46,928 nucleotides of DNA from NCBI GenBank assembly GCA_024280015.1, contig JAJRQY010000174.1:1-46928 (forward strand). The letters run 5' to 3'. Source of the stretch: Actinomycetes bacterium (GTDB lineage Bacteria > Actinomycetota > Acidimicrobiia > Acidimicrobiales > SZUA-35). The first letter of the stretch is position 1, and each line of letters begins with the position of its first letter. The notes below the pieces were generated by a model. That model did not search any database and was not told where the DNA came from. It saw nothing but the letters and a program-made list of their open reading frames with translations. Shown here piece by piece: positions 7,140-23,728 of this stretch. The translations under genes were made by a program, and so were the position numbers.

Positions 7140-7144
7140 CGCTT

Positions 7145-7552: not shown

Positions 7553-7555
7553 CCG

Positions 7556-7921: not shown

Positions 7922-7928
7922 CTCCTGA

Positions 7929-8621
7929 GTGATGCCGCCGACAGCCGCCCAGATCGCTATCGAAGTAGATCGGCTCGTCATCGGTGTGCACCGGGCCGTC
8001 ATGGTCACCGACGGCACCGCGATCCGAGGACAAATCGACCCGCTCCAGTTGGATTCTCCCGGCCAGCTTGTGGATCTTGCGGAGTTCTTTCTGGCCGATG
8101 CCTGCACTGTCCAGCTCGTACACAACCGCCTTCCCTACGACGACGCTGGCCTTGGACCTCGCCTCTTTGCTCAGCTGGAACGACAGAACCTGATCAACCC
8201 TGAAGGGTGCCCGTCCGATGATCTACGGGGCACACTCGGTCAAGTTCTACTGGCCCGAGCCCATGTCGCCTCATCCATGTGGCCAGGAGATCTGGCCGTT
8301 GCCCTTCAGGGTGCGGGCGAGGCACTAGCCGTCGCATCTGGCAACGTCACCAACGTCTTCCGGACTTTGCCAGAACCACGGGAGCCCGCTCATTGTCTCC
8401 ATCACCGGTTGACGGGCTTCGGTACGCACGTTTGGATGCCCACGTTGAGGCCTGGTAAGGCGCGGGTCTGACCGCCAATGCGATCACTGAACTGGAGTTC
8501 GGCGACACTCCGACATGCCATCGAGACCGAGACCAATGAACGCTGCGAGCGCATGACCGCCGCAATGGATGATCTTTCATTGTGGTGCGGAATCATCGGC
8601 TCACTTCGAAGTGAGCCGTAG
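7929..8621 (+). pseudogene. Decayed gene with two compensating frameshifts and an internal stop (unknown family)
   Basis: Frame 1 encodes about 165 residues that look like a winged-helix-containing protein (VDLAEFFLADACTVQLVHNRL, then GLGPRLFAQLERQNLI) up to PAHCLHHRLTG near 8415. Protein-like sequence then continues one base back (LRYARLDAHVEAW, TAA at 8456-8458, GAGLTANAITELEF) and near 8497 returns to the first frame (ATLRHAIETETNERCERM) to a stop at 8619-8621. The -1 and +1 shifts cancel, but the intervening segment also has a stop. The naive ORF would end at 8471. Either a real pseudogene or clustered sequencing errors. Starts GTG-ATG at 7929/7932. Confidence 0.6.
8597..8618. terminator. 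Perfect 22-bp palindrome, probable terminator hairpin
   Basis: The 11-bp arms CGGCTCACTTC and GAAGTGAGCCG are exact complements with no spacer, giving a stem of at least 9 bp in RNA. It sits at the very end of the decayed gene, directly before its TAG. There is no T-run. A terminator is the simplest reading; a dimeric-protein operator for the small downstream ORF is the alternative. Confidence 0.5.
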
Positions 8622-8633
8622 TGTGTCAGCCTG

Positions 8634-8843
8634 ATGCGCAACCAGATGTTTGAGTTCGAGCATGAGGGCGACGAAGTCCGGATCTCCATCGACTACGACT
8701 GTGATGGTGCGGAGCCATCATTTGCTACGGCTCGGTCACTCCGCATTGGGGGGACCGACGTCGAGGACGACAGTCTTGCTCTCAAACTTCTGGGCATGGG
8801 CGCGCCGAACTGGCTTTCAACCTTGGATTGTTCGGGCCAGTAG
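8634..8843 (+). CDS. Small hypothetical protein
   Basis: A 69-residue ORF, acidic in its first half (FEFEHEGDEVRISIDYDCDG) and without membrane segments or recognised motifs. It lies alone between the palindrome and the convergent HNH gene. The alternation of charged and hydrophobic residues looks protein-like, but there is no Shine-Dalgarno, so this is a weak call. Confidence 0.35.
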   Translation: MRNQMFEFEHEGDEVRISIDYDCDGAEPSFATARSLRIGGTDVEDDSLALKLLGMGAPNWLSTLDCSGQ

Positions 8844-10200: not shown

Positions 10201-10235
10201 GTTTCCAATCGTAACGAACACCTGTTCGTATTACA
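10199..10235 (-). promoter_or_regulatory. Promoter of the HNH gene with LexA (SOS) box in the spacer
   Basis: Positions 10214-10229 form a perfect 6-4-6 inverted repeat, ACGAAC-ACCT-GTTCGT, which fits the mycobacterial/Bacillus-type LexA box core CGAAC-N4-GTTCG. On the minus strand it is flanked by TTGTAA (-35) and TACGAT (-10) separated by exactly 17 nt, so LexA would sit between the two elements. The -10 ends 7 nt before the ATG at 10200, suggesting a leaderless SOS-induced mRNA. In M. tuberculosis, 13E12 family genes are known LexA targets. Confidence 0.75.
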
Positions 10236-10450: not shown

Positions 10451-10951
10451 GTGCATCTCCGCCAGCGACACCCAGATGACATTGCCTCCTGCGTCGAGAT
10501 CATGCGGCGAACCCACCACGACAGTGCGTATCCCATCTACTGGCCCGACGACCCGGCCGGGTTCTTGGGAAACGAGGCCGAGCTCAAGGCCTGGGTCGCT
10601 GTTGATCCCGACAACGGGATCGTCGGCCATGTCGCCCTTCACCGAGCCGACGAGGCTGCGGCGATGCAAGCAATCCAGGCGAAGGGTCCAACTGAGGCCG
10701 AAGGCTATGCCGTGGTGTCTCGACTTCTGGTGCACCCACAGGCCCAAGGACACGGGTTAGGAAAGCGCTTGCTTGACACCGCAGTCGACTACTCAGTCAG
10801 CCGAGGCCAGCATCCAATTCTTGTCGTCACCAAGAACACCCCAGACGCCATCCAGTTCTACGAAGCCCTCGGCTGGAATCGAATCGGTTCGATGACCGTT
10901 GAGCTCCCGGTACGACCAGACATTGAGATGTGGGTCTATACCGCCCCTTGA
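10451..10951 (+). CDS. GNAT-family N-acetyltransferase
   Basis: A 166-residue GNAT protein. LRQRHPDDIASCVEIM near the N-terminus is the typical first strand and helix. The acetyl-CoA motif SRLLVHPQAQGHGLGKRLLD is near residues 94-113 and the C-terminal AIQFYEALGW is the family's closing motif. GTG start, with a weak TTTACT element ending 6 nt before it. It is divergent from the HNH gene across about 250 bp that hold only the SOS promoter and AT-rich sequence. Substrate unknown. Confidence 0.8.
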   Translation: MHLRQRHPDDIASCVEIMRRTHHDSAYPIYWPDDPAGFLGNEAELKAWVAVDPDNGIVGHVALHRADEAAAMQAIQAKGPTEAEGYAVVSRLLVHPQAQGHGLGKRLLDTAVDYSVSRGQHPILVVTKNTPDAIQFYEALGWNRIGSMTVELPVRPDIEMWVYTAP

Positions 10952-10984
10952 TCCAACCAGGCCTCAACTGGCTAGCACCCGCCC

Positions 10985-11368
10985 CTAGCGCGACTCCTCG
11001 ACAATGGCGTAGGCCTCAATCTCCACGGTTCGTTGCGGATCATCCAGGGCAGACACCTGGACAATGGTTGCCGCCGGCTTCACATCAGCGAATGCTTCGA
11101 GGTGGGCCCGAGCGACCAGGCCCATGTCTGCCATGTCGGTTACATAGGTGACGGTACGCACGACGGAGGCAAGGCTCGTCCCCGCCTCATCCAATGTCTC
11201 AGCGATGATTCGCAGGGCGTCCTTCGCTTGCTGGTAGCTATCGCACCCTTCGACATGAGGCGGCTGGGCCGTCGTGCCCGAAACATGGATCGAGTTTCCC
11301 ACCCGCACGGCCCGGGAATGGCCGTACACGTCTTCGAATGGATCGCCGGAGGAGATATTGGTTCGCAC
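10985..11368 (-). CDS. RidA/YjgF-family protein
   Basis: A 127-residue single-domain protein of the RidA (YjgF/YER057c/UK114) family, which hydrolyses reactive enamine/imine intermediates or has related roles. Visible marks: HSRAVRVGNSIHVSGTTA at the start, QAKDALRIIAETLDEAG in the helix and a C-terminal IEAYAIVEE strand in place of the more usual VEIEA-A-A ending. The active-site Arg expected in the KPA(R)T motif is changed here (KPAATIVQV), so classical imine deaminase activity is doubtful and it may belong to a divergent subgroup. GTG start with AGGA close by. Convergent with the acetyltransferase gene. Confidence 0.8.
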   Translation of the reverse strand: MRTNISSGDPFEDVYGHSRAVRVGNSIHVSGTTAQPPHVEGCDSYQQAKDALRIIAETLDEAGTSLASVVRTVTYVTDMADMGLVARAHLEAFADVKPAATIVQVSALDDPQRTVEIEAYAIVEESR

Positions 11369-11436
11369 AGTTCCTAGTCTGCCAGCTCAAACGAATGGGC
11401 GGTGCGGGACCCGCCACCTGGCATGGCGCCCCGAAG

Positions 11437-12141
11437 TCATTGGGTCAGATAGAGCCAGCCGAAGCCAGCGATCCCCCGGTAGTCCTGATACAAGGCCGCT
11501 CGCTCATCGGCGAATGTTTCCGCCTCCGCGGTTCCGACCCGCCGGACTCCGGCAATCCAGCCTCCTTCAAAGCCGTCCCATTCTTCCAGGGACGAAACGG
11601 AGGCATCCTCAACGACCCAGCCAGCTTCAGACGCCATGGCAGCAAGCCCCTGCGAGCCGACTGGCAACTCCCCGAATAACTCACTCAATGCCGAGGTAGC
11701 TGAGTCCATCCACACCATGTCTCCGACCACCGCACCTTTGCGGCCAAGAGACTTCATGGCAGCAAACATCTGCTGTGTTCCCCCGAACCCATGGGACGAG
11801 CCGATGGATAGGGCCACATCAGCCGGAAGCGAGTGCTTTCCAACATCGCCGACTTCGAAGCGGACTCGTCCTTCCAGTCCCTGCTCAGTAACCCGAGCTC
11901 GTCCATGTTCGATGGCGAGACGGTCAGAATCGACTCCAACCACGTCAAGTTCGCAGTGCCGTTCGCCAGCCAGCAGGGCCAACTTGCCGTACCCACAACC
12001 GAGGTCAAGTAGAGAAGGACCAAGGCCCGAAGCGAACTCACCGATGTGGCGAGCCCGGCCCTCGCTCATTGGCGAGTTGAACTGGACCCATGAGGCACCA
12101 GCCACCATCAGTTCTGCTCTCGCTCCGGCATCCAGTCCCAT
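11437..12141 (-). CDS. Class I SAM-dependent methyltransferase
   Basis: A 234-residue Rossmann methyltransferase. SAM motif I, LLDLGCGYGKLALLAG, is near residue 45, motif II (DVVGVDSD) carries the ribose-binding acidic residue, and FEVGDVGKHSLPADVALSIG follows as motifs III and IV. A long helical C-terminal part (STSALSELFGELP type) could be the substrate cap. A -10-like TACTCT (12153-12148) ends 6 nt before the ATG, so its own leaderless transcript is likely although it lies downstream of other minus-strand genes. Substrate not recognisable. Confidence 0.75.
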   Translation of the reverse strand: MGLDAGARAELMVAGASWVQFNSPMSEGRARHIGEFASGLGPSLLDLGCGYGKLALLAGERHCELDVVGVDSDRLAIEHGRARVTEQGLEGRVRFEVGDVGKHSLPADVALSIGSSHGFGGTQQMFAAMKSLGRKGAVVGDMVWMDSATSALSELFGELPVGSQGLAAMASEAGWVVEDASVSSLEEWDGFEGGWIAGVRRVGTAEAETFADERAALYQDYRGIAGFGWLYLTQ

Positions 12142-12147
12142 AGTTGG

Positions 12148-12153
12148 AGAGTA
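12148..12153 (-). promoter_or_regulatory. Leaderless-type -10 of the methyltransferase gene
   Basis: TACTCT on the minus strand (12153-12148) ends 6 nt before ATG 12141. Only the TANNNT pattern and the spacing support it. Confidence 0.4.
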
Positions 12154-12203
12154 GGCGACAATGCCGCCGTGGTCTCGATCTATTCAATGGCACATCATGG
12201 CCG

Positions 12204-12806
12204 CTACCGGATCTGGCCAAACCTTGCCGGATCAATGTCATAGCGGCTGACAACAGCGGTCAGACGATCCAGGCGATCAGCCGGTGTTCCCTGACACGCG
12301 CCAACCAACGTCTCGGTGAAGCGGTCGAGCTCACCTAGCGTGACCTCGTCATCAAATCGCCCGTCGCCATCGACCTTCGTTTTCGGTGCCGCGATTCCGA
12401 GGGTGGTCAGAACCAGTCCGCCCTGCCAGCTGATTGTGCGTACTAGATGCTCAATAGCGAAGGCTCCCCCGGTAGTCCCGACGCTCAGCACACCAACCGG
12501 CTTGCGGTAGAGGGTCGAGGCCCCAACCAGCCAATCAAGGGCGTTCTTGGTAGAGCCCGCGACTCCAGCTGCATACTCCGGAGCAGCAATGATGACGGCA
12601 TCGACCGCTTCAAGCCTGGCTCGCAACTGGGCGACAATAGGGGGCGGCTCATCCACCTGGGTTGGAACAAACGCCGGAACTTCCGCGATCGAGCCGAGGT
12701 CACTAACCGAGACACCAAGCCGGGTTGCGCTACGGGCAACCACATCCAAGGCCGCCCGATTGGATGAGCCTTCGTTCAAACTGCCGCACCACAATCCAAG
12801 CTCCAT
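12204..12806 (-). CDS. NADPH-dependent FMN reductase-like flavoprotein
   Basis: About 200 residues, flavodoxin-like fold. N-terminal CGSLNEGSSNRAAL is the FMN phosphate-binding loop (GSxxxxSxN) and PEYAAGVAGSTKNALDWL near residue 93 is the family's flavin-binding signature. Two adjacent ATGs (12809 and 12806) are possible; the second lies exactly 6 nt after a TAGGCT -10-like element (12818-12813), so it is preferred. Likely an NAD(P)H:flavin or quinone reductase. It follows the acyl-CoA synthetase gene on the same strand, 15 nt apart. Confidence 0.8.
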   Translation of the reverse strand: MELGLWCGSLNEGSSNRAALDVVARSATRLGVSVSDLGSIAEVPAFVPTQVDEPPPIVAQLRARLEAVDAVIIAAPEYAAGVAGSTKNALDWLVGASTLYRKPVGVLSVGTTGGAFAIEHLVRTISWQGGLVLTTLGIAAPKTKVDGDGRFDDEVTLGELDRFTETLVGACQGTPADRLDRLTAVVSRYDIDPARFGQIR

Positions 12807-12824
12807 CATTGAAGCCTACGTTCG

Positions 12825-14402
12825 CTAGATAGCTCGTTCGTGTTCAGCCCAATACGGTTCACGGAGAATCCTCTTCTTGACCTTGCCGGTCCCAGTCCGG
12901 GGCAATGCCTGGACCAGGTCGAAGGACCGTGGACACTTGGAGCCAGCCAGATTCTCTCGGCAAAAGGCAGAAAGGGTCTTGATCAGGTCCTCTTCCCCAG
13001 GTCCTCCCTCAGCTGATGCTGAGTCGCTCGGCACCAGGATGGCCTTGACCTCTTCGCCATACTCTTCATGGGGCACGCCGATCACCGCGACGTCGGCCAC
13101 CAGCGGATGCCCGCCAAGCACACTCTCAATTTCGGCCGGATAGATATTGACACCACCGGAGATGATCATGTCGATCTTTCGGTCACTGAGCCACAGGTAG
13201 CCGTCCTCATCCAGGTAGCCAACATCGCCGGTCGTGAACACCCCTGGCTCCTTGTGGGCCTCCGCAGTCTTCTCCGGCGAGTTGTGATACTCAAAATCCA
13301 TGCCTAGCGCATTGCGGAAGTACAGGGTTCCCGGCTCCCCCGGCCCAAGCATCGTGCCGTCATCGCTCACGACCATGATCTCCATATTGGGTTGAGGCGG
13401 ACCAACACTGCCTCCCTTGGCCAGCCATTGCTCGGAGTCAATCAGGGTGATAATCGACCCCTCGGTTGAGCCGTAGTATTCGCTGATTTTGGGGCCCCAC
13501 CATTCGATCAAGGACCGCTTGACCACCGCTGGGCACGGTGCCGCCCCGTGCAGGTAATAGTTCACTGATGACCCATCGAAGCTGTCCTTGACCTCATCGG
13601 GCAGATCGACCATGCGCTTCATCTGGGTGGGCACCAGGTGGATATTTGTGGCCTGATACTTGTCGATCAGCCCCAATACTCCGGCGCTGTCGTACTTGTG
13701 CTGCATCACGGTTGCCGCACCGCCAAGCAGAGGCATGAACGAGAAAGCCCACTGGGCCGAGTGATACACGGGCCCACACAACACGGTGGTCTGTGGATCA
13801 TTCACCATGGCGTTCAGACCAGCAATGATGAGTAGCCAAACCTCCGGAGTGGTCCCCGGCTCCATGGCCGCCAGCGAGCTGCGGACCCCTTTGGGGTTGC
13901 CGGTTGTGCCCGAGGTGTAGAACATGGGCCCACCAAAGCTCTGACCCTCGGGTTCCTCTACCGAGCAACCAGTGAAGAAGTTGTCATACCCCTGGAATCG
14001 GCCCGTGGTTTCTGCTCCGACGAGCAAGGCCAGTTCGATTCTGGTGGCTTGTTCGTCTTCGAGTGCCTTGGCTGCCTGATCCAGGTAGCGATGGCCGACC
14101 ACGAGGGCCTTCGAGCCGGAGTCGCCCAGGATGTAAGCGATCTCCGGGGCCACCAAATGCCAGTTGATCGGGATGAAGGTAACCCCCATGTTGGCGCAGG
14201 CCAAGGACACTTCGAACCATTCGATGCGATTGCCACACAAGATGGAGAGCGTGTCCCCGGCGGCAATCCCGCCGGAGCGGAGGCCGTGGATGACCTGGTT
14301 GACCCGGGCGTCAAGCTCGGACCAGGTGATGGACCGGTCATCGTCGACAATGGCCATCTCCGCACCCTTGCTGGCAGCGAAACCTGCAGTCAATACCGAC
14401 AC
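12825..14402 (-). CDS. Acyl-CoA synthetase (AMP-forming, FadD-type)
   Basis: A 525-residue ANL-superfamily enzyme that activates a carboxylic acid to its CoA thioester through an acyl-AMP. Motifs in order: YTSGTTGNPKGVR (P-loop A3) near residue 160, YYGSTEG (A5) near 318, TGDVGYLDEDGYLWLSDRKIDMIISGGVNIYPAEIE (A7-A8) near 410, and GTGKVKKR with the catalytic lysine near the end. No membrane segment. GTG start, 2 nt after the stop of the Ddn-family gene. The acid substrate (fatty, aromatic or sterol side chain) cannot be set from sequence. Confidence 0.9.
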   Translation of the reverse strand: MSVLTAGFAASKGAEMAIVDDDRSITWSELDARVNQVIHGLRSGGIAAGDTLSILCGNRIEWFEVSLACANMGVTFIPINWHLVAPEIAYILGDSGSKALVVGHRYLDQAAKALEDEQATRIELALLVGAETTGRFQGYDNFFTGCSVEEPEGQSFGGPMFYTSGTTGNPKGVRSSLAAMEPGTTPEVWLLIIAGLNAMVNDPQTTVLCGPVYHSAQWAFSFMPLLGGAATVMQHKYDSAGVLGLIDKYQATNIHLVPTQMKRMVDLPDEVKDSFDGSSVNYYLHGAAPCPAVVKRSLIEWWGPKISEYYGSTEGSIITLIDSEQWLAKGGSVGPPQPNMEIMVVSDDGTMLGPGEPGTLYFRNALGMDFEYHNSPEKTAEAHKEPGVFTTGDVGYLDEDGYLWLSDRKIDMIISGGVNIYPAEIESVLGGHPLVADVAVIGVPHEEYGEEVKAILVPSDSASAEGGPGEEDLIKTLSAFCRENLAGSKCPRSFDLVQALPRTGTGKVKKRILREPYWAEHERAI

Positions 14403-14404
14403 AA

Positions 14405-14839
14405 CTAATCACGCTCCAAAACAACGACCGGAATCTCTCGGTCGGTGACCGATGCGTACTCGTTGTAGTCGTCATAGACGTCCGCCATAGCATTCCAGCA
14501 CGCCTCACGCTCCTCGCCACTGGTAATTCTGGCGGTGGCCGAATGAGTCTGCCCGCCCACTTCAACGGTCACCGAGGGATTGGCTTTCAGGTTGTGAAAC
14601 CAGTCCGGGTGGAAGTCATGGCCGCTGAATGAGGCGATGATGATCCAGCCATCGTCACGGTTTCCTGCCAGCAGCGGGACCGTTCGCTTCTTGTGAGACT
14701 TCCGTCCCGTGGTACCAAGAATGATGATGTCGCCGCCACCCAGGCTCCCACCAATCCGGCCACCACTTACCTTCAGTGTCAGCCGGTGCAGGGTGCTAAA
14801 TACTTGGGCGAAACGACGATTGACCTTGGTTTGAGCCAT
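14405..14839 (-). CDS. Ddn-family deazaflavin (F420)-dependent nitroreductase/quinone reductase
   Basis: A 144-residue split beta-barrel flavin-binding-like protein (DUF385). Typical features are the basic N-terminal helix, GGDIIILGTTGRKSHKKRTVPL near residue 36, where the Lys/Arg residues contact the F420 phosphate in known structures, NLKANPSVTVEVGGQ near 85 and the closing YASVTDREIPVVVLER. ATG at 14839 is preferred to the GTG at 14854 because family members begin near it. A TAGTCT element ends 5 nt before. In an apparent operon with the acyl-CoA synthetase and FMN reductase. Confidence 0.8.
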   Translation of the reverse strand: MAQTKVNRRFAQVFSTLHRLTLKVSGGRIGGSLGGGDIIILGTTGRKSHKKRTVPLLAGNRDDGWIIIASFSGHDFHPDWFHNLKANPSVTVEVGGQTHSATARITSGEEREACWNAMADVYDDYNEYASVTDREIPVVVLERD

Positions 14840-14864
14840 TCGCCAGACTAGCACCTAGCGCACT

Positions 14865-14949
14865 ACAGCTCTACGTGGGGCGAGGAAGAACGGGCTGCCA
14901 GCCGAGCGACTACACCCGTTCCTCCGGTCTCGCCGAGGCTGCCTAGCAC
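14865..14949 (+). pseudogene. Decayed copy of the 3' end of the downstream lipoprotein gene
   Basis: About 85 bp (14865-14949) align with 17150-17235, the last codons, stop and first bases after the lipoprotein gene, with roughly a dozen differences and a one-base deletion that breaks the frame. It shares ACAGCTCTACGTGGGGCGAG and GCCGAGGCT...CTAGCAC. The rest of the gene copy is missing. It lies directly left of the mazEF cassette. Confidence 0.7.
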
Positions 14950-14974
14950 AAGTATTAGGCTCTTCCTGGCATCA

Positions 14975-15016
14975 GTCTTGTCTACTCCGATGTCGCTGTG
15001 CTAGTCTACTCCTATG
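14975..15016 (+). promoter_or_regulatory. mazE promoter with direct-repeat operator candidate
   Basis: TTGTCT (14979-14984) and TAGTCT (15002-15007) are spaced about 17-18 nt, and the latter ends 6 nt before the ATG at 15014, a leaderless arrangement. GTCTACTCC-n-ATG occurs twice, at 14980-14992 and 15004-15016, 24 bp apart and overlapping the -35 region and the start codon. Direct repeats here are a natural site for autoregulation by the RHH antitoxin, alone or with the toxin. Confidence 0.5.
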
Positions 15017-15268
15017 GCGCCTTCCAAGACGACCACCACATTGCGAGTTCCCAGTGACCTAAGGGACGAAATCGCACGGATAGCAGAACAGCGCGGCACC
15101 ACGATGCTTGAGGTCGTGACTGATGCGGTGCACCGACTGGGTCGCGATGAATGGTGGTCCTCAGTACGAGGAGCTTTAGACGAGCTCACGCCATCCGACA
15201 CAGCCTCCTACGTCACCGAGAGCAGTGGACTTGAGGCAGCATCCATGGACGGTTTGGATGCGAGCTGA
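15014..15268 (+). CDS. Antitoxin, MazE-like ribbon-helix-helix protein
   Basis: An 84-residue protein. LRVPSDLRDEIARIAEQRG near residues 11-29 is a ribbon-helix-helix pattern: a DNA-binding strand followed by two helices. The C-terminal 35 residues are acidic and probably disordered, the part that wraps the toxin in MazEF-type complexes. It overlaps the next gene by 11 nt, the usual order and coupling for an antitoxin before its toxin. Expected to neutralise the toxin and repress its own promoter. The cassette lies between remnants of two other genes. Confidence 0.8.
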   Translation: MAPSKTTTTLRVPSDLRDEIARIAEQRGTTMLEVVTDAVHRLGRDEWWSSVRGALDELTPSDTASYVTESSGLEAASMDGLDAS

Positions 15269-15614
15269 GACTCGATTCATCCGGGGTGATCTCTGGCTGG
15301 TCGACTTTGGTGTTGACCCCGAGGATCCCGAGCAAGCCTTTCGCCGTCCAGCGCTCCTCGTCTCCGATGATCGACTACACCATCCCCATCTGCGAATGGC
15401 CATTGTAGTGCCGGGCACATCGACGATTCGTTCGCTCCCTCTGCATGTCGAGGTACCGCCCGAAGAAGGAAATGGGCTCCTCGTCGCCACTGCCTTCCAG
15501 GTCGAGCAAGTACGAGCCGTATCCGCCGCTCGATTCGTCGACCATCTTGGTCGCCTCGATCTGGTGAGCCAGCGTGCGATTGACGAAATCTTGAGAAATG
15601 CGTTGAGCCTGTAG
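15258..15614 (+). CDS. MazF/PemK-family toxin (endoribonuclease)
   Basis: A 118-residue protein. IRGDLWLVDFGVDPEDPEQAFRRPALLVSDD at residues 8-38 is the MazF N-terminal signature, with R-G-D-(x)-W-x-V-D followed by RPAL(V)(V)SDD; conserved Arg and the later VVVPGTSTI (S/T in the active region) support ribonuclease activity that cuts mRNA at short motifs. The ATG at 15258 gives the normal length; a longer frame from 15225 would extend deeper into the antitoxin gene. The stop lies just before the pheT-like remnant. Confidence 0.85.
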   Translation: MRAETRFIRGDLWLVDFGVDPEDPEQAFRRPALLVSDDRLHHPHLRMAIVVPGTSTIRSLPLHVEVPPEEGNGLLVATAFQVEQVRAVSAARFVDHLGRLDLVSQRAIDEILRNALSL

Positions 15615-15622
15615 AGATCGAG

Positions 15623-15716
15623 CAGTTGCGCAAGACGTGCGAGCGCAGTTCGCCTTTAGAACTTCGCGACGGTATCGATCATGGCTAGGCGAGCTGCTGA
15701 GACCTCACCGTCTTCC
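15623..15716 (-). pseudogene. Decayed copy of the 3' end of pheT
   Basis: About 94 bp (15623-15716) align with 17253-17348, the 3' terminus of pheT and the bases after it, with about a dozen substitutions and a 2-nt deletion; the pheT stop codon position is altered. The similarity ends sharply after CGTCTTCC. Together with the lipoprotein-gene remnant at 14865 it brackets the mazEF cassette, as though the lipoprotein gene/pheT junction had been copied and then opened by the cassette. Confidence 0.7.
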
Positions 15717-15783
15717 CTCCACTCGTGTTTCTCGGAGTATGAGCAGGCGGGAACTACACACGGCTGGGCAACGTCGGATCAGT

Positions 15784-17232
15784 ATGTATCGACGTGTTCA
15801 TCAGCATGTGTTCCTCTCCTTGTTCTTGCTGGCAGCAGCATGCGCCACCTCAGATCCTCCTGCTGGTCTGGTTGACGGAACGGACACACCGGAGCCAGGC
15901 GCGCAACCCGTCGAGGGGCGACAAGAAGCACTCCTCGCCGATCCATTCATTCTTGGCGATGGCGTCACCTTGCCCGCCCTTGGTCCAATCGAACCGGGTG
16001 TTCTCATCCAGACCCAATGGCTGGGGACCCAGACAGAAACAGTAGATCGTCTATCGGCCAGATGGACGTCTTGTCACCAACTCACCCCTGGCCTCTGGGT
16101 CCTGAGTGGCGAGGTTCTCGATGGCTTTGAGTTCCCTCTAGTGGTGGAGACTGCCTTCGTGCGAGACAGCGACGGCAAGGTCGATCTCGCTCCAGTTCGA
16201 TTGACCTTCTCTGGGACCGGAAACTTCAGCCTTGTCTATGACGTCAACGAGGTTCGTCCTGACCTGGATGCGCGCACGGTCCTTCGTTCTAACCTTGGGG
16301 TTGACTCCTGTGGGTTGCAGTTGAGCAACCTCCAACCAGTCGGTCCCCTCACCCATATCCCAGCCTGGTCCGCACCGGCCGACTCGGTGCAGGGCTACCC
16401 ACTTCAGATACCAATTGCGGCCACGATGAGCTTGCAGGCCGAGTTCGCGACCGACGTCTGGCTGGGCAACGGCTACGGCTTCTCGACCATCTGGCTTCCG
16501 GAGAATCCTTTCGGATTTACCGATCTTGTGGTCGGGGATGATCCAAGCTGTCCAACGCTGAGCTACGGCGTTCGAGTCCCACTCTTGCGGATCTTCGAAG
16601 TCTTGGTCGAGCATCGTGGCGGACCGTGCATCAAGCCGGAGACTGTCCTGGGCGACGTTGCGGGGCATGCAGGTTGGGAGTGGATCGACAGTTATCGAAC
16701 AACGGCTCAACTTCCCCTCGCCGATGGCTGGCTGCTGGTAGGCGCGAAGGATCAAGCCACTGTCGTCGCCACCATTGACGACCTGCGACCCTTCGCCAAC
16801 CTCCTGATCCTGCCACGCCCGGGCGGAGCTTCGACAGCATCGCCGAATGAGCCTCGACCCCTGGGGTGGCATCGAAACTTCGGTGCCAACGACAAGCAGT
16901 GCGAGAGCACGGTGATCGAGCTTGACCAGGACTACCACCTTCGCCTGGCCAAAGGCCAAAAGTGCTTCCTCGAACAAGTTACTGGGGGTGTGCCCGTCGT
17001 CTGGGACTACGTCAGTGTCACCATCGAAGGTGACCCCATCTTCTCTCGCCGCATCTTTGACGGGCAGTCTGTTTGGTTTCTGCGGGATGATCGAGCCGAT
17101 AGCTACGTTGGTTTGCCATCGATCACCGTCCTGGCCTGTCACGACCTCGACAGCTCTACGTGGGGCGAGGAAGGATCGGCCTGCCAGCCGAGCGACTATC
17201 CCGGTTTCACCGGTTTCGCCGAGGCTGACTAG
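15784..17232 (+). CDS. Predicted secreted lipoprotein, unknown function
   Basis: A 482-residue protein. The ATG at 15784 is chosen because it opens a proper lipoprotein signal: basic MYRRVHQ, hydrophobic core, and a lipobox-like LAAAC with C20. The longer frame from 15637 translates the antisense of the pheT remnant. The mature part is rich in beta-type sequence and has scattered Cys residues that may pair. No known domain or catalytic motif was recognised. It is convergent with pheT, 37 nt apart, and its 3' end exists as a broken second copy at 14865. Confidence 0.65.
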   Translation: MYRRVHQHVFLSLFLLAAACATSDPPAGLVDGTDTPEPGAQPVEGRQEALLADPFILGDGVTLPALGPIEPGVLIQTQWLGTQTETVDRLSARWTSCHQLTPGLWVLSGEVLDGFEFPLVVETAFVRDSDGKVDLAPVRLTFSGTGNFSLVYDVNEVRPDLDARTVLRSNLGVDSCGLQLSNLQPVGPLTHIPAWSAPADSVQGYPLQIPIAATMSLQAEFATDVWLGNGYGFSTIWLPENPFGFTDLVVGDDPSCPTLSYGVRVPLLRIFEVLVEHRGGPCIKPETVLGDVAGHAGWEWIDSYRTTAQLPLADGWLLVGAKDQATVVATIDDLRPFANLLILPRPGGASTASPNEPRPLGWHRNFGANDKQCESTVIELDQDYHLRLAKGQKCFLEQVTGGVPVVWDYVSVTIEGDPIFSRRIFDGQSVWFLRDDRADSYVGLPSITVLACHDLDSSTWGEEGSACQPSDYPGFTGFAEAD

Positions 17233-17269
17233 CACGAGCAACGGGTTGTTAACAGTTGCGCCAGACGTG

Positions 17270-19657
17270 CTAGCGCAGTTCGCCCTTGTGGAACTTGGCG
17301 ACAGCATCAATCATGGCTTGGCGAGCTGCTGAAACCTCATCGTCTTCCAGGGTGTGATCGGCTGCTTGCAACCGGATGGCATAGGCCAGCGAGCGCTTGC
17401 CCTCCCCAACCTGCTCTCCTCGGAACACGTCAAACAGCTTGACCGAGCGCACCAGCTGGCCGCCGGCCTTGACCAGATTGCGCGACACGTCTTTGGCCGA
17501 GACCTTGTCATCGACCACGAAGGCCAAGTCCAGATCACTGGAGGGGAAGCGTGACACCTTCTTGTACTTCGGCGCGTTACTCAAGGCGGACAGAATCGGT
17601 GCAGTGTTCAGCTGCAACCAGGCGACTCGACCCTCGATCTCATAGGCCTCCAGCACCCGTGGATCAATCTCGCCGACCTCACCCAGGACCCGGCCACGGA
17701 AGACGACTTCGGCACTACGAGTTGGGTGCAGGCCCGCCCGCTCGGCGTTGCGTAGTGAAACATCACGCAGGGTGAGTGTTGCTGTGGTCTGATCCAGCAA
17801 CTGGGTGGCACATACCGCGTCAGCGTCGGCCCGAATGGCGGCCACCCATTCCTGTTCATCGGGCAGTTCCTGGTCTGATCCAAGGTAGATCCGGCCAAGC
17901 TCATACAACTGGACCCCAGCATTGCGATGTGATTGGTTGTAGGCCACCGCCTTCAATAATCCCGGCAACAACGACGTTCGAAGCACCGACTCTTCGGCCA
18001 CCAACGGGTTGGACAGGGTGATGCCCTCATCAGCCAATCCGGCACGCAGCAAGTCATCGGGAGCCAGGAACGGCATGGGCATGGCCTCGGAGTAGCCCGC
18101 TCCAAGGAATGCTCGACGAATCCGCCGACGCCCAAGCTGATTCGGTGTCAGTTCACCGTTCTGAGCCGGTCGTGGCACCCGCTTACCGGACTTTTCATAA
18201 CCATGGTGACGCCCGACTTCTTCGACAATGTCTTCCTCAATGGAAGAATCGGGGCGCCAGGACGGGATATGTACCGAAAGCACACCGTCTTCCGATGGCG
18301 AAGACGTGTAACCAATCGGGTCCAAGTAGCCAACTACTTGCTCGATGGTCAGATCGGTACCGAGCAGGTGATTGATCTTGGTGAGCCTGGTCCGCACCGG
18401 TGGGGTGACCTCCAGATTGCCGTCGACAACAATGGTGCCGGAGGAGACCGTGGCCCCGCAAATCTCGATGGCTAGCTGACAGAACCGATCAAGACCCCGC
18501 TGCACTCCTTCAGGATCGACGCCACGTTCATAGCGTGTGGAAGCCTCCGAACGCAGATTGAGACGCCGCACCGTCTTGGCAATGATCATCCGATCCCAGA
18601 TGGCTGCTTCTAGTAGAACACTGGTGGTGTCTTCACCGATCTCGGTGGACGCTCCCCCCATCACACCGGCCAGACCTATGGGCTCATCCGCAGCATTGGC
18701 GATCACACCATCGGACTCGGTAATGCTGCGCTCGACATCATCCAGCGTGGTGATTGTCTCGCCCTCGCGACCCATGCGGACGCTCAGCACACCATCAGCC
18801 ACCTTGGCTAGGTCATAGGTGTGGTTGGGCTGGCCAAGCTCCAACATCACGTAATTGGAGATATCAACAATGGAGTTGATGGGCCGCATTCCGGCTGCGG
18901 TGAGCCGTTGAGCCATCCAGGCTGGTGATTCACCAATGGTCACATTGTCCAGCACTCGAAAGCCGAAGCGCTTGCACAGGTCCGGGGCATCAATGGTGAC
19001 CGAGGCCCGCTCGGAGGCAACACTGTCGCCCGTTGGGACCGAGCGTTCAGGCACAGAAAAGGGAACACCTTGCTTGGCCGCCAGGTCACGAACCACACCA
19101 ATCATGGATAGGGCGTCGGGGCGATTGCCCTCAATGTCCAGGTCAAACATGATGTCGGTGCTGGCCCCAAGGGCTTCAACCAGGGGCGTGCCAACGACCA
19201 GGTCCGAAGGCAGAACGAGGATCCCATCGGCATCGACCTCTCCGGCGATCTCCAATTCGGGGCCAGAACAGATCATGCCGTTGGACCACTGGCCGCGAAG
19301 CTTGCGGCGAGCAATCTCCATGCCCCCGGGCATGGTCGTTCCAAGCGTGGCCAGGGGCACCAGGTCACCGACAGCCATATTGAAGGCACCACAACAGATC
19401 TGCAACGAATCGTCGCCAGCCTCGCCTGCCGCATGCAGCTCCGTGCTGCCAGTGTCGACAGATACCAGCTGGATGCGGTCGGCTTCGGGGTGCGGAGCTA
19501 GCGCCAATACCTTGGCCACAATGATGCCGTCCCAAGAGGCGCCAACCGTCTGGATCGACTCCACCACCATGCCCAGCTCGGTCATGGTCTTGGCGATTTC
19601 CTCGGGCTCGCCGGTGATGGGAGCAAATTCCTGCATCCAGGAGAGAAGAACATTCAT
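17270..19657 (-). CDS. pheT: Phenylalanine-tRNA ligase beta subunit
   Basis: The 795-residue length matches bacterial PheT. Domains in order: tRNA-binding EMAP/OB-like domain from about residue 45 (GIIVAKVLALAPHPEADRIQLVSVD), B3/4 editing domain around 200-400, B5 domain (about 400-480), the catalytic-like core near 490-690 (YSEAMPMPFL, NPLVAEESVLRTSLLPGLL) and the C-terminal ferredoxin-fold anticodon-binding domain (KVSRFPSSDLDLAFVVDD to the end). Forms the alpha2-beta2 enzyme with PheS, whose gene ends 15 nt upstream. A copy of its last bases lies at 15623-15716. Confidence 0.97.
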   Translation of the reverse strand: MNVLLSWMQEFAPITGEPEEIAKTMTELGMVVESIQTVGASWDGIIVAKVLALAPHPEADRIQLVSVDTGSTELHAAGEAGDDSLQICCGAFNMAVGDLVPLATLGTTMPGGMEIARRKLRGQWSNGMICSGPELEIAGEVDADGILVLPSDLVVGTPLVEALGASTDIMFDLDIEGNRPDALSMIGVVRDLAAKQGVPFSVPERSVPTGDSVASERASVTIDAPDLCKRFGFRVLDNVTIGESPAWMAQRLTAAGMRPINSIVDISNYVMLELGQPNHTYDLAKVADGVLSVRMGREGETITTLDDVERSITESDGVIANAADEPIGLAGVMGGASTEIGEDTTSVLLEAAIWDRMIIAKTVRRLNLRSEASTRYERGVDPEGVQRGLDRFCQLAIEICGATVSSGTIVVDGNLEVTPPVRTRLTKINHLLGTDLTIEQVVGYLDPIGYTSSPSEDGVLSVHIPSWRPDSSIEEDIVEEVGRHHGYEKSGKRVPRPAQNGELTPNQLGRRRIRRAFLGAGYSEAMPMPFLAPDDLLRAGLADEGITLSNPLVAEESVLRTSLLPGLLKAVAYNQSHRNAGVQLYELGRIYLGSDQELPDEQEWVAAIRADADAVCATQLLDQTTATLTLRDVSLRNAERAGLHPTRSAEVVFRGRVLGEVGEIDPRVLEAYEIEGRVAWLQLNTAPILSALSNAPKYKKVSRFPSSDLDLAFVVDDKVSAKDVSRNLVKAGGQLVRSVKLFDVFRGEQVGEGKRSLAYAIRLQAADHTLEDDEVSAARQAMIDAVAKFHKGELR

Positions 19658-19672
19658 CAGTAATTCCTTCGA

Positions 19673-20674
19673 TCAGAACTGGGAGAGGAAGCGGACATCA
19701 TTGGTGAACAGTTCTCGCAAGTCTTCGACCCCAAATTTCATGAGGGCCAGACGGTCGATTCCGAAACCGAAAGCGAAACCCGAGTACTCCTCGGGATCAA
19801 TACCACCGGCCCGCAAGACGTTGGGATGAACCATGCCGCAGCCACCGAGCTCAAGCCAGGAGCCATCGGGACGTTGGATGTCATATTCGGCGGAGGGTTC
19901 GGTGAAGGGAAAGTGGTTCGGCCTCAAGCGAGAGGAGAACCCCGGGCCGAAGTAGGCCTCGGCAAAGGCTTCGATGGTGCCGGCCAGGTCAGCCAGAGAG
20001 ATGTTTCGATCGATGACCAGGCCTTCTAATTGGTGGAAGACTGGCATGTGGGTGGCGTCGGCGGTGTCGCGACGGAAAACTCGTCCGGGAGCAACGGTGT
20101 AGATCGGTGGTTCTTGGTCCAGCATGGTTCGGATCTGGACTGGTGAGGTATGGGTCCGCAAGAGCGTCTTGCCCGGTTCACCATGATTCACATAGAGGGT
20201 GTCGAAGCCGTCACGAGCGGGATGGCTGGGCGGGATGTTGAGGGCGTCAAAGTTGTACCAGTCGGTCTCGACCTCGGGGCCCTCGGCGATGCGAAAGCCC
20301 ATGCCGACAAAGACATCTTCCAGTTCTTCCCAGGCCTGGGTCACAATATGGGCATGGCCAACGGCAGCGTCGCTACTGGGGATTTCGGTGAGGTCCAGAC
20401 GCTCAGCCTCAAACTGCACGATCAAGGCGGCATCCTTGAGCACGGTACGACGAGCAGCGATTGCGGCCTCGACCTCACCCCGGATCTCATTGATGGCCCG
20501 GCCGGCATCCTTGCGATCTTCGGGAGCGAGCGCTCCGATTCCCTTCTTGGCTCCACTGAGGAAGCCGGTCTTGCCGAACGCTTCACGCTCGACCTCGCCC
20601 AGGACGTCAAGGTTGGTGACGTCACCCAAGCCAGCAATGACTGCGGCGGCATCGGTTCGGAGTTGGTCGATCAT
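19673..20674 (-). CDS. pheS: Phenylalanine-tRNA ligase alpha subunit
   Basis: Class II aminoacyl-tRNA synthetase catalytic subunit, 333 residues from the ATG at 20674. The frame stays open upstream to 20839, but that part translates the trmH tail and its 15-nt repeats and does not resemble PheS. Signatures are the N-terminal coiled coil (1-90), HPARDGFDTLYV (motif 2 region), RTHTSPVQIRTML and VFHQLEGLVIDRNISLADL, then the motif 3 stretch GFAFGFGIDRLALMKFG near the end. It attaches phenylalanine to tRNA-Phe in the cytosol together with PheT. Confidence 0.96.
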   Translation of the reverse strand: MIDQLRTDAAAVIAGLGDVTNLDVLGEVEREAFGKTGFLSGAKKGIGALAPEDRKDAGRAINEIRGEVEAAIAARRTVLKDAALIVQFEAERLDLTEIPSSDAAVGHAHIVTQAWEELEDVFVGMGFRIAEGPEVETDWYNFDALNIPPSHPARDGFDTLYVNHGEPGKTLLRTHTSPVQIRTMLDQEPPIYTVAPGRVFRRDTADATHMPVFHQLEGLVIDRNISLADLAGTIEAFAEAYFGPGFSSRLRPNHFPFTEPSAEYDIQRPDGSWLELGGCGMVHPNVLRAGGIDPEEYSGFAFGFGIDRLALMKFGVEDLRELFTNDVRFLSQF

Positions 20675-20699
20675 GAGAGTGAGCCTGTTGATTGAGAGG

Positions 20700-21560
20700 T
20701 CATTTGTCCAGTGAATTTGAGGGAGTCGAGTTTCCGGAAGTCGAGTTTCCGGAAGTTGAGGTTCTGCGCTGTTGCCAGCTGGCGAAGCACAGAACAGCAC
20801 CAGCAGCGGCAACATTGAGTGATTCGGTTGGTCCAGCAAGTGGGATGGTGGTCAAGGTACCGGCAGCGCTGACTAGCTCCGGTGCTAGCCCATGGGCTTC
20901 GTTTCCGAGCACGATTGCTGCGGATCGCAGATCCAGCTGGTCATAGTCAGTGGCTGGGGCAGAGCCCGCCTGACTAGAGACGACCGTGGCGGCAATGATG
21001 CGGCCCTGGGCCCGGAGCTGATCGAACACATCGGCGGTATTGGCCATGGTGATGACGGGGAGCCGAAAGAAGGCGCCAGCGGCAGCTCGGACAACCTTCG
21101 GGTTGGTGGGATCAACCGACTCTCCACACAGAACAACACCGGCACAGCCTGCGGCTTCGGCGGTGCGAATCAGGGTGCCAACATTGCCAGGATCTCGCAC
21201 CTCGACCAGGACCAGGACTGGCTTGTCCAGGGCAAGGTCAGCCAAACCTGCCGTCGGCATCCCAACAACGGCAACCACCGGTTGGGGTGAGACGGTGTCC
21301 AGAACCGCTTCAAGCGTGCCGGGAAATACCGGTCGCAAGATAACCGTTCCCATGGTGGCAAAGCTGGCGATGTGATTATCGAGGTTGCCCTCAAAGAAGA
21401 TCTCTTCAACTTCGAGTCCCGAGGACAGTGCTTCGCTCACCAGCACCGGACCTTCAACCACGAAGGCCCGCTCCTGGGAGCGGGCCTTACGCTGGCGAAC
21501 AAGTCGCCGCAGCCGCTTCAATCGATGGTTCTTTGAACCGATCGGTTCAGAGTCAATCAT
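20700..21560 (-). CDS. TrmH/SpoU-family RNA 2'-O-ribose methyltransferase
   Basis: A 286-residue SPOUT enzyme. An N-terminal substrate-binding domain (KAR.QERAFVVEGPVLVSEAL near residue 27) precedes the knotted domain: VLVEVRDPGNVGTLIRTAEAAG (motif 1) near 134, AIVLGNEAHGL (motif 2) near 222 and IPLAGPTESLNVAAAGAVLCFA (motif 3) near 246. Its usual place beside pheS and rplT in actinobacteria suggests it modifies 23S rRNA. The C-terminus is built of TSGNS repeats that come from the 15-nt DNA repeats and are probably unimportant for catalysis. Confidence 0.88.
   Translation of the reverse strand: MIDSEPIGSKNHRLKRLRRLVRQRKARSQERAFVVEGPVLVSEALSSGLEVEEIFFEGNLDNHIASFATMGTVILRPVFPGTLEAVLDTVSPQPVVAVVGMPTAGLADLALDKPVLVLVEVRDPGNVGTLIRTAEAAGCAGVVLCGESVDPTNPKVVRAAAGAFFRLPVITMANTADVFDQLRAQGRIIAATVVSSQAGSAPATDYDQLDLRSAAIVLGNEAHGLAPELVSAAGTLTTIPLAGPTESLNVAAAGAVLCFASWQQRRTSTSGNSTSGNSTPSNSLDK
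20713..20757. repeat. 15-nt tandem repeats at the end of the trmH-family gene
   Basis: Units at 20713 (GAATTTGAGGGAGTC), 20728 (GAGTTTCCGGAAGTC) and 20743 (GAGTTTCCGGAAGTT), with a partial fourth from 20758. They encode TSGNS-TSGNS-TPSNS at the C-terminus of the minus-strand gene. The TTCCGGAA core is itself palindromic. The unit resembles those near 45892. Confidence 0.75.
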
Positions 21561-21598
21561 GAAGCAGCGAGTTGAGTCGAGGTTACAAACGGACCGGG

Positions 21599-21967
21599 CT
21601 AGGCAGCGTCAGCAGCAGAAGCGGCGTCAGCGGCCTTGACCAGAGCGGCAAAAGCATCGGCATCAGTCACAGCCAGATCGGCCAGAACCTTGCGGTCAAC
21701 TTCAATTTCGGCCAGCTTGAGTCCATTGATGAACTTGCTGTATGTGGTGCCATTGATGCGACATGCCGCGTTGATCCGCTGGATCCACAAGCGACGAAAT
21801 TCGCCCTTGCGAGCACGGCGGTCTCGGTAGGCATAGTTGCCGGAGTGCATGACCTGCTCATTGGCGGCCCGTACGCTTCGGCTCTTGTTTCCGTAGTAGC
21901 CCTTGGCCCGCTCAAGTGTTGTGCGGCGGCGCTTCTTGGAGTGGACAGCGCGCTTTACTCTTGCCAT
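21599..21967 (-). CDS. rplT: 50S ribosomal protein L20
   Basis: A 122-residue L20, slightly longer than usual because of an alanine-rich tail ([11 protein letters not shown]). It begins [19 protein letters not shown] and has [17 protein letters not shown] and [12 protein letters not shown], the conserved 23S rRNA-binding and assembly segments. Preceded by an AGGAAAGTGAG-type ribosome-binding site. Third gene of infC-rpmI-rplT. Confidence 0.97.
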
Positions 21968-22044
21968 CGGGTTCTCACTTTCCTTCGATTACGTAGTTCG
22001 TTCAAGATCACTTACAGGGTGGGTGCTTGGCACCCGGACTTCAA

Positions 22045-22239
22045 TCAGCTGGAGAGCAGCTTCTTGATTCGTGGTGCGTCAGCATCGGTTACTTCGTGCT
22101 CACCACGAAGGCGACGCTTGCGCTTGGAAGCCATCTTCGAGTTGAAGTGGTTCAGGTTGCGCTGGCGACGACGGAGCTTGCCCGTTCCTGTGACCTTGAA
22201 GCGCTTCTTGGCGCCCTTGTGTGTTTTCATTTTTGGCAT
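22045..22239 (-). CDS. rpmI: 50S ribosomal protein L35
   Basis: A 64-residue basic protein beginning MPKMKTHKGAKKRFKVTGTGK, the L35 signature, and containing HFNSKMASKRKRRLRG. The ATG at 22239 is fixed by this start and by AGGAG six nucleotides before it; an open frame continues upstream to 22299 but is not L35-like. Lies between infC and rplT. Confidence 0.97.
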   Translation of the reverse strand: MPKMKTHKGAKKRFKVTGTGKLRRRQRNLNHFNSKMASKRKRRLRGEHEVTDADAPRIKKLLSS

Positions 22240-22317
22240 GGGGGTCTCCTGCCTCCTACGTCTTCGCACCCGGGTGCGGGACGAAGCGGCGAATAACAAT
22301 CAGTTGTAACCGGTCAG

Positions 22318-22959
22318 CTAGTCAGCTTCGGATTCGGTTTCCACAGTCTCAGTTGAGGCTTCTGCTACTTCGGCCTGCGCCGCAAGAGCTTTCGCTTCTT
22401 CCTTGGCTGCTTCTACTTCTTCTCGAGCTTTCTTGGCTTGTTTCTTCGAGTCAGGCCCAAGCACCATGGTCATATTGCGACCATCGAGCCGGGGGTATGC
22501 CTCAATCTTTGCGATGTCGTCAGTGCGTTCAGCGATGTCGTCGAGGATCTTTCGGCCCAAATCTGGGTGTGTGACCTCACGACCTCGGAACATGATGGTG
22601 ATCTTTACCTTGTGCCCGTCAGCGAGGAATCGCTCCACCTTTCGGGTCTTGGTATTGAAATCACCACTGCCGATCTTTGGTCGGTACTTCATCTCTTTCA
22701 CAGTGGCGTGGCTGGTCTTTTTGCGAGATTCCTTCGCCCGCTGTGCCGCCTCGTACTTGTACTTCCCGTAATCCATGATTCGGACGACAGGAGGGTTGGC
22801 CTTGTCAGCAACTTCGACAAGGTCAAGATCGAGTTCCCTGGCTAGTGACAGGGCTTCGGGCATTGGCTTGATTCCAAGCTGCTCTCCGTCAACGGAGATC
22901 AGTCGGACTTCGCGAGCACGAATCTTTTCGTTGATTCGTGGCTCAGTTGGTGCAGCTAT
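22318..22959 (-). CDS. infC: Translation initiation factor IF-3, probable AUA start codon
   Basis: A 213-residue IF-3 when started at ATA 22959. The first ATG (22863) would drop the first 32 residues, including PRINEKIRAREVRLIS, which is conserved in IF-3. Between the in-frame TGA at 22968-22966 and that segment the only usable codon is ATA, placed 9 nt after a strong AGGAG (22973-22969). IF-3 rejects unusual start codons and represses its own mRNA; the E. coli gene starts with AUU for that reason. The N-domain ends near residue 85, then the C-domain (VKEMKYRPKIGSGDF), then an acidic Ala/Glu-rich tail of about 35 residues. Confidence 0.9.
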   Translation of the reverse strand: MAAPTEPRINEKIRAREVRLISVDGEQLGIKPMPEALSLARELDLDLVEVADKANPPVVRIMDYGKYKYEAAQRAKESRKKTSHATVKEMKYRPKIGSGDFNTKTRKVERFLADGHKVKITIMFRGREVTHPDLGRKILDDIAERTDDIAKIEAYPRLDGRNMTMVLGPDSKKQAKKAREEVEAAKEEAKALAAQAEVAEASTETVETESEAD

Positions 22960-23045
22960 TGCCGATCACTCCTCATACAGGCGCTTGTCCCTTCGGGCGG
23001 ATGTTGGTCCGGCGCATCGTTTGCGGTTGTTCTTCGTACTGTCAT
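22956..23045 (-). other. Short ORF in the infC leader whose stop overlaps the infC start (speculative)
   Basis: An ATG at 23045 opens a 29-codon frame, starting MTVRRTTAND, that ends with TAG at 22958-22956. That stop shares two bases with the ATA of infC (ATAG). No convincing ribosome-binding site precedes the ATG. If translated it would couple translation into infC. Confidence 0.25.
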
Positions 23046-23204
23046 CAAGGAAGAGAAACCACGATCCACCGCCATCTCACGCCCGGCTTCCGCACTATTC
23101 AGTACGAAATCCAGCACCTCAGGTGACTGTATTGACCATGACACACTCCGGTATTCTGGGTGGCCAGGTGGGGCGGAAGCCCTCTTTCTCTCAGACAGCC
23201 CGAA

Positions 23205-23210
23205 ATCATA
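23205..23210 (-). promoter_or_regulatory. Possible -10 element of the infC operon
   Basis: TATGAT on the minus strand (5 of 6 matches) would give a transcript start near 23198 and an infC leader of roughly 240 nt. No clear -35 at 17 nt. The leader region holds three copies of CGGAAGCC in either orientation (23085, 23174, 23213), of unknown meaning. Confidence 0.3.
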
Positions 23211-23221
23211 GCGGCTTCCGG

Positions 23222-23236
23222 TAACTTCCATACATG
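23222..23236 (+). promoter_or_regulatory. Leaderless-type -10 of the DUF1844 gene
   Basis: TAACTT (23222-23227) ends 6 nt before ATG 23234. It fits only the TANNNT pattern and no -35 is seen, so support comes from the repeated geometry elsewhere in the window. Confidence 0.35.
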
Positions 23237-23728
23237 ACTCTTTGGACGCCAGACGGCGAGCACCCCGTGAACAAGCCAGAAGCAGACACGACGCCCGCAT
23301 CCACACCACAAGACTCTCCCTCAGCAGAGCCCAACATGACACCAGAGCAGGAGCAACAGGCTCGGGAGATGGCAGCCGGACTTTCGGAGGCTCGCCAGCA
23401 ACTACTCGAAGCCAATGTTGCCGACGTGGTGGCCAACCACGCGTTTGGGATCTATGAGCTAGCTGCCATCCACCTCACTGCGGAAGAACCAGACATGGTT
23501 GCGGCGAGGCTCGCCATTGACGGCCTAGGCAGTCTGGTGGAGGGGCTCACTGGTCGGCTGGGCGAAGCCGAGCCGACCCTGACCGAGGCATTGCAACAGA
23601 TCCGAATGATGTTTGTACAGCGCACCACCCAGCTCAAGAAGGCAGCCGAAGCCGGTTCGGACGACAAGACGCCAACAAGTCCCGAGACTTCGCCAGAAGA
23701 CAAGGCGTCAGAGGACAAAGACAGCTAA
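23234..23728 (+). CDS. DUF1844 family protein
   Basis: A 164-residue protein. The core, about residues 60-132 (NHAFGIYELAAIHLTAEEP, then ARLAIDGLGSLVEGLTGRLGEAEPTLTEALQQIRMMFVQ), matches the helical DUF1844 family, a short conserved protein usually found beside infC in actinobacteria. The N-terminal 40 residues are Pro/Thr/Gln-rich and the C-terminal 30 are acidic, Lys/Asp/Ser-rich and probably disordered. It is divergent from infC. Function unknown; the fixed position suggests a link to translation or cell growth. Confidence 0.75.
   Translation: MTLWTPDGEHPVNKPEADTTPASTPQDSPSAEPNMTPEQEQQAREMAAGLSEARQQLLEANVADVVANHAFGIYELAAIHLTAEEPDMVAARLAIDGLGSLVEGLTGRLGEAEPTLTEALQQIRMMFVQRTTQLKKAAEAGSDDKTPTSPETSPEDKASEDKDS

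Follow-up and report, generated by a model that had tools for sequence, protein, structure and literature searches.

A mazEF cassette between decayed gene ends beside pheT: a candidate scar of one-ended, homology-anchored capture

In a 46,928-nt stretch of contig JAJRQY010000174.1 (assembly GCA_024280015.1; the whole stretch is called the window here), a mazEF toxin-antitoxin pair lies between decayed copies of two gene ends, those of a lipoprotein gene and of pheT, which meet in intact form farther to the right. The two copies decayed without selection, and the junction of mazEF with the pheT 3' flank is common to the window and a congener. The locus may be a recombination scar, left when DNA was captured by homology at one end, rather than a target site used by the cassette; this reading is held tentatively, and the donor, the crossover and the order of losses that go with it are what we infer. 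Solitary toxin-antitoxin pairs move between genomes without carrying an enzyme for it, and scraps of resident gene ends lying beyond an insert hint at how they travel.

The cassette and the gene-end repeats that flank it

On the right side of the locus, the lipoprotein gene and pheT end convergently, 14 nt apart, and on the left side decayed copies of the same two ends, L' and P', lie 670 nt apart with mazE and mazF inside (Table 1). Alignment of L' with its intact counterpart (one gap) scored 121, against a maximum of 28 when L' was put through 2,000 dinucleotide shuffles; alignment of P' (two 1-nt gaps) scored 128, with a best value of 26 from 2,000 shuffles. These scores bear out the initial annotation, which had described the left segments as decayed copies of two neighboring gene ends with the toxin-antitoxin pair exactly between them, and whose coordinates for the segments and for both gaps were right within a few bases (L' reaches 14952).

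Table 1. Features of the locus, in window coordinates
Feature	Position	Strand	Basis or remark
F420H2-dependent quinone reductase gene, left neighbor	14405..14854	-	PF04075, E 5e-36
L', decayed lipoprotein-gene 3' end: final ~27 codons with the stop, and 6 nt of 3' flank	14865..14952	+	78/89 alignment columns identical, against 17150-17238
Stretch between the scraps, holding mazEF	14953..15622	+	missing between the gene ends at 17238/17253
Antitoxin gene (MazE role), ribbon-helix-helix look by eye	15014..15268	+	ORF; sister loci conserve it together with mazF
mazF toxin gene, start overlapping mazE and read by eye	15258..15614	+	PF02452 PemK_toxin, residues from 15267
P', decayed pheT 3' end: last 26 codons (stop included) and 17 nt of 3' flank	15623..15716	-	84/96 alignment columns identical, against 17253-17348
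Full lipoprotein gene, 481 aa	15784..17232	+	start and lipobox LAAAC assigned by eye
14-nt spacer of the 'empty' junction	17239..17252	.	sequence
P, intact pheT 3' end and 3' flank	17253..17348	-	
pheT	17270..19657	-	with 10916-15672, in the block unusually like congener G001

Relative to the intact end, L' carries 5, 3 and 1 substitutions at codon positions 1, 2 and 3, one substitution in the flank and one 1-nt gap; in P', the stop codon is altered relative to intact pheT. Together, the left copies differ from the intact ends by 7, 6 and 5 coding substitutions at the three codon positions plus three gaps, whereas pheT of the window and of the congener differ by 27, 17 and 145 (Fisher p 4.6e-5). 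Because the codon positions are hit so differently in the two comparisons, the left copies are regarded as scraps that decayed without selection and not as selectively kept alleles. The level of decay appears similar in the L' and P' pairs, as from one event. Dating by the private changes of P' (6 of 83 ungapped columns, with the two pheT genes 0.20 apart at fourfold sites) was tried and abandoned because the sites were too few, and a third pheT-end scrap, judged by eye at 14840-14864, was dropped as a promoter-like TGCTAG match.

A scan covering 726,645 of the genome's 4,804,110 bases, in 43 pieces, for same-strand pairs of at least 40 nt and at least 78% identity within 5 kb yielded five pairs. 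Two of these are the L' and P' pairs; the others lie inside an 846-aa ORF, inside a low-complexity Ala/Glu-rich ORF, and in a short tandem repeat at a contig end.

As in other MazEF/PemIK type II systems, a MazF protein of the PF02452 family (E 1e-18; 68 bits against a cut-off of 23.1), and hence of MazF/PemK fold, is encoded after a small antitoxin gene that lies directly 5' of mazF in an overlapping frame, and a promoter-like element, TGCTAGTCT, recognized by eye as -10-like, stands immediately upstream of mazE. Nothing essential sets the window's pair apart from these systems; its antitoxin gave no Pfam match and a sub-threshold match in NCBIfam. Judged from its sequence, the pair should work as an ordinary type II toxin-antitoxin system. 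The initial observation that no transposase is visible held among the window proteins scanned with Pfam (a set of five and a set of seven), where neither a transposase nor an integrase was found; an HNH endonuclease (8857-10221) was among these proteins.

The lipoprotein belongs to no Pfam or NCBIfam family. At E 0.001 it found matches in 3 of 38 other genomes of the family and in 12 of 396 other genomes of the order (the two sets overlap), and 11 of the 12 matches in the order reached its C-terminal part. Its C-terminal ~125 residues recur in other, mostly shorter proteins, while its N-terminal part has few matches (E 0.001, 396 order genomes). Across the 14-nt spacer, arms GCAAC/GTTGC and CTAGCACG/CGTGCTAG are able to pair; a hairpin at this junction was rejected because folding was no better than that of shuffles (z -0.14 and -0.82).

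Shared history with the congener and the order of events at pheT

The searches of relatives and of the family turned up a single further genome of the genus, G001 (JAJRXF010000054.1; locus L024). Against a genome background of 69-75% identity (nine matches of at least 200 bases from two other sampled contigs), the two are 73-80% identical left of the locus, 94-95% over 10916-12311, where a piece is missing in G001, 93% over 15111-15672, 82-85% over 17264-23644 as a whole, and 66-71% beyond 29 kb. Taken in 200-base steps, pheT is 89-98.5% identical throughout, and pheS drops to about 79-89%. Fourfold-site divergence is 0.10 in a methyltransferase gene, 0.16 in mazF and in the C-terminal half of mazE, and 0.20 in pheT; in the next three genes it is 0.38 (pheS), 0.51 and 0.50. 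Because genes at 0.10-0.20 stand beside genes at 0.38-0.51, a block of ~8.7 kb (10916-19660) has a more recent history in common between the two genomes, probably through exchange. It appears that pheT was exchanged between species along with its left neighbors and without pheS. In mazF, the two genomes differ by 5, 0 and 16 substitutions at codon positions 1, 2 and 3.

The congener is without the segment corresponding to window positions 12312-15110; its FMN reductase gene is fused to the middle of mazE, and the deletion took the left lipoprotein end, the promoter and the N-terminus of the antitoxin. In this genome (L024 8376-8881), mazF is intact, with a protein 95% identical to that of the window, and the antitoxin is a C-terminal fragment of 51 residues. 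Beyond mazF, the congener shares with the window a short flank and then the pheT 3' flank. It goes on with a 54-nt portion of pheT end plus flank and with two copies of one palindromic repeat, the second of which is followed by pheT; between the copies lie, in this order, an ORF resembling a membrane protein and a lipoprotein stub that has no DNA-level match to the window's lipoprotein gene. Thus, the congener has a pheT-end copy of its own, which is shorter (42/43 identical) and encloses a different insert of 1.1 kb. The palindromic repeat, ~50 nt long (L024 8977-9031 and 9978-10031), gave one weak match in the window's genome and 28 more rows in G001; two of these rows fall inside this locus, and several places enter once for each strand.

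Because mazF of the congener is joined to the same pheT 3' flank, the ancestor from which both copies of the block descend already had mazEF beside a pheT end. The source of P' is indicated by the last 85 nt of pheT, where P' agrees with the window's pheT against G001 at six sites and with G001 against the window at three, and has six changes and two gaps of its own. With the commonest base in 27 outgroup genomes taken as ancestral, the window is derived at four of the six sites (16, 18, 18 and 13 of 27 genomes), G001 at one, and one is unclear; the six sites fall within 85 nt and half of them share one codon, and one of the four favorable calls is a plurality (13/27). When the outgroups were restricted to those with the same residue, clear polarity was left at codon 13 alone (14/18). 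These patterns lend weak support to the view that P' was copied from the window's own pheT lineage after it had split from that of G001, onto a chromosome that already had mazEF at this place.

The initial annotation had offered, as its first possibility, a different order, in which the lipoprotein/pheT end was doubled first, mazEF then entered the first junction exactly, and the bulk of the first lipoprotein gene disappeared. This course takes simple steps only and would account for both scraps and for the intact right junction, and the outgroup polarity that opposes it is weak. However, G001 has the same mazEF-pheT flank junction, though P' was apparently copied after the pheT lineages split and agrees with window-derived states at four of six sites, and mazEF of G001 would need to have come from the window's lineage and yet lie at a G001-like pheT end. 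Because the shared junction and the window-derived states in P' (of weak polarity) indicate that mazEF adjoined pheT before P' was copied, the duplication-first order is disfavored, and it is considered distinctly unlikely.

An alternative that needs no donor is a tandem duplication of the segment from the lipoprotein gene through mazEF to the pheT end, after which the first copy lost the lipoprotein gene and the second lost mazEF, so that the gene order was swapped. It would give similar, unselected decay in both scraps, and it is compatible with the shared mazEF-pheT flank junction and with later copying of P'. Nevertheless, the loss of the second mazEF must end 6 nt past one stop codon and 17 nt before the other, and the 14-nt filler left behind is unlike the cassette, of which no trace was found in it (score 11, against 8-14 for shuffled fillers). 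In addition, the material between the pheT-end copies of G001 matches nothing left of the window's mazEF (of 21 genomes searched, G001 alone matched), which also speaks against duplication and loss. This alternative is regarded as credible but unlikely.

The suggestion that the convergent junction is a preferred landing site for small toxin-antitoxin cassettes fared poorly. Pursuit of the region downstream of pheT in 27 other genomes of the family (a subset of the 32 with a pheT match, with G002, G005, G019, G021 and G031 left out) gave no match to mazEF or to the lipoprotein at E 1e-8 in the 629 to 10,823 bases available in each. In 20 of the 27, pepF lies downstream of pheT, at less than 600 bp in 16, and in 7 it was not found in the stretch; in the window and in G001, an island lies between pepF and pheT. 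Among the 11 sister cassettes (described below) for which both neighbors were called, three lie between convergent genes, as judged from rough ORF calls. An empty allele, with the lipoprotein gene directly beside pheT, was found in no other genome.

Sister cassettes and a parallel case behind katG

Twelve full sister loci (L076-L087) match the window from a start at 14979-15018 to an end at 15559-15697, that is, from the promoter region to about the end of mazF. Their MazF proteins are 66-78% and their DNA 63-72% identical to those of the window, and their contexts are unlike. In one of them, L077 (OX638344.1, genome G274), mazEF follows katG, whose 3' end recurs as a copy immediately past mazF. 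Over 39 nt, this scrap departs from the katG end at three third codon positions and nowhere else, and an identical 39-mer is present in G326, a relative in which the site is empty and katG runs straight into the same P450-like gene; positions 10374-13561 of L077 are 97% identical to G326.

Within katG itself, L077 is 93-98% like G326 over 6976-8685 (with one stretch at 89.5%), then mosaic to 9255. Because katG is mosaic, the crossover was not at one clean point. The last 380 bases are 91-97% like katG of G233, G184 and G417, compared with 87-89% for G326, and over the last 190 bases identity is 94.7-96.8% to three relatives, compared with 86.8% to G326. The likeness to G233 runs 55 nt beyond the katG stop codon, to 9697. 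The L077 cassette gave no match in the stretches read behind katG of G326, G233, G341 and G209. In G184, broken pieces of it lie ~4.8-6.2 kb behind the donor-type katG (183 nt at 87%, 37 nt at 92%, and 38 nt at 97%), and in G417 one piece (38 nt at 92%) lies ~1.1 kb behind it. From these pieces it follows that the lineage with donor-type katG carried the cassette nearby, though none was seen directly behind katG. In G184 (L235 1799-3178), the L077-like mazEF pieces are scattered across ~1.4 kb. Distant MazF proteins (32-35% identical) occur in G357, G184 and G255, and in G402 a sister cassette stands on the opposite side of katG. Taken together, the L077 pattern is as expected after capture anchored by homology at one end.

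The inserts of the window, G001 and L077 are bordered by direct repeats of gene 3' ends, and these could in principle be attL and attR sites left by an integrative element that targeted the 3' ends of genes and has since decayed. However, no integrase was found among the neighbors scanned, the repeats differ in length (96, 43-54 and 39-48 nt) and in the gene concerned and offer no constant att core, and the donor-type sequence of L077 reaches ~380 bases into katG, well beyond the repeat. Site-specific integration is therefore considered highly improbable.

Gene-end repeats were found at 6 of 28 flanks of 14 loci, the window included, and in 12 of 278 random windows (p 0.003), a figure for which the window had been chosen for this very feature and L077 was counted twice. 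Without the window, the count was 4 of 26 flanks (p 0.038), and with L077 also counted once it was 3 of 25 (p 0.12). Because the difference faded once preselection and double counting had been corrected, enrichment of gene-end repeats at sister cassettes was not established. Two further loci are recorded as leads only. In L080 (4705-5002), a repeat begins at the end of a tRNA-Ala gene and is copied ~180 nt downstream, ~110 nt left of the sister mazEF. In L076 (5385-5556), the sister cassette is followed by sequence that recurs at other places in the contig and resembles tRNA 3' ends by eye; ARAGORN called no tRNA there.

Proposed capture and its relation to known systems

Capture at a gene 3' end is the simplest account that would cover the window, G001 and L077. 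The resident chromosome would have carried the occupied allele, in the order lipoprotein gene, mazEF, pheT, and the donor would have been DNA of a close relative with the empty allele, in which the lipoprotein gene and pheT adjoin without mazEF. One end of the incoming DNA would have recombined through homology within pheT, the other by an illegitimate join to the resident pheT end, 79 nt into it. The resident end would thereby have been stranded beside mazEF as P', with the lipoprotein gene, the 14-nt spacer and pheT placed to its right; the older lipoprotein gene, now redundant, would then have been lost save for its end, L', and both scraps would have drifted. Homology-facilitated illegitimate recombination (HFIR) may have been the route, or else a single crossover of a small circle, which would give a similar partial duplication. 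The initial annotation had offered, as a second possibility, that an allele bearing the toxin-antitoxin pair recombined in; the meeting of occupied and empty alleles is retained here as the best fit, with the empty allele entering an occupied resident.

Likeness to the gene end breaks off abruptly at 15716/15717 in the window, at 8943/8944 in L024 and near 10374 in L077, as at a nonhomologous join. A switch within the anchor gene is seen in L077, where katG passes from resident type to donor type through the mosaic stretch, while the comparison of pheT between the window and G001 reveals none. Likewise, the insert-free resident state is represented for L077 by G326, and for the window none was found. 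Several observations count against capture. The comparison covers a single congener, and the deletion in it of the left lipoprotein end makes L' uncheckable there; the pheT-end copy of G001 is less decayed than that of the window; mazEF was the captured part in L077 and the lipoprotein gene in the window, so that the parallel is one of mechanism and not of part; and local duplication with complementary loss would look much alike. A broader proposition, that integrase-free MazEF cassettes of this family of Acidimicrobiia spread mainly by riding behind gene 3' ends, each capture leaving a resident-end scrap as its fossil, seems doubtful at present. The donor-type end, the cassette, the resident scrap and the empty relative are all readable in the katG case, and such a scar has a signature that lends itself to computational searches around small cassettes of any kind. 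A narrow literature search found no paper that combines MazEF with these recombination routes, which does not imply that there is none.

Tandem duplication with random loss, in the part of its literature that concerns mitochondrial genomes, likewise leads one to expect decayed scraps at old gene positions; the present case is set in a bacterial chromosome, and one toxin-antitoxin copy must vanish almost without trace. HFIR is known in Streptococcus pneumoniae, Acinetobacter baylyi, Pseudomonas stutzeri and Escherichia coli (PMC3240628). As in the proposed capture, one end enters by gene homology, the other joins without homology, and passenger DNA is brought along; the difference is that HFIR as described there generally deletes recipient DNA of similar size, whereas here a short resident gene end remains beyond the insert. 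In the clone analysis of the same study, PCR gave a positive result for partial duplication of the homologous end in 56 of 60 clones, and 14 of these were confirmed by sequencing, with 109-950 bp duplicated; its authors ascribe the duplications to a single crossover, while four clones appeared to be HFIR (PMC3240628). Single crossover of a small circularized fragment (PMC3240628) resembles the present loci in that the insert is flanked by a partial duplication of the homologous gene end. It differs in involving a laboratory plasmid and duplications of 109-950 bp, compared with repeats of 39-96 nt here, and this route alone does not give the donor-type katG stretch of L077, which exceeds the repeat. 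Both MazEF and these recombination routes are already known; it is the scar that is informative.
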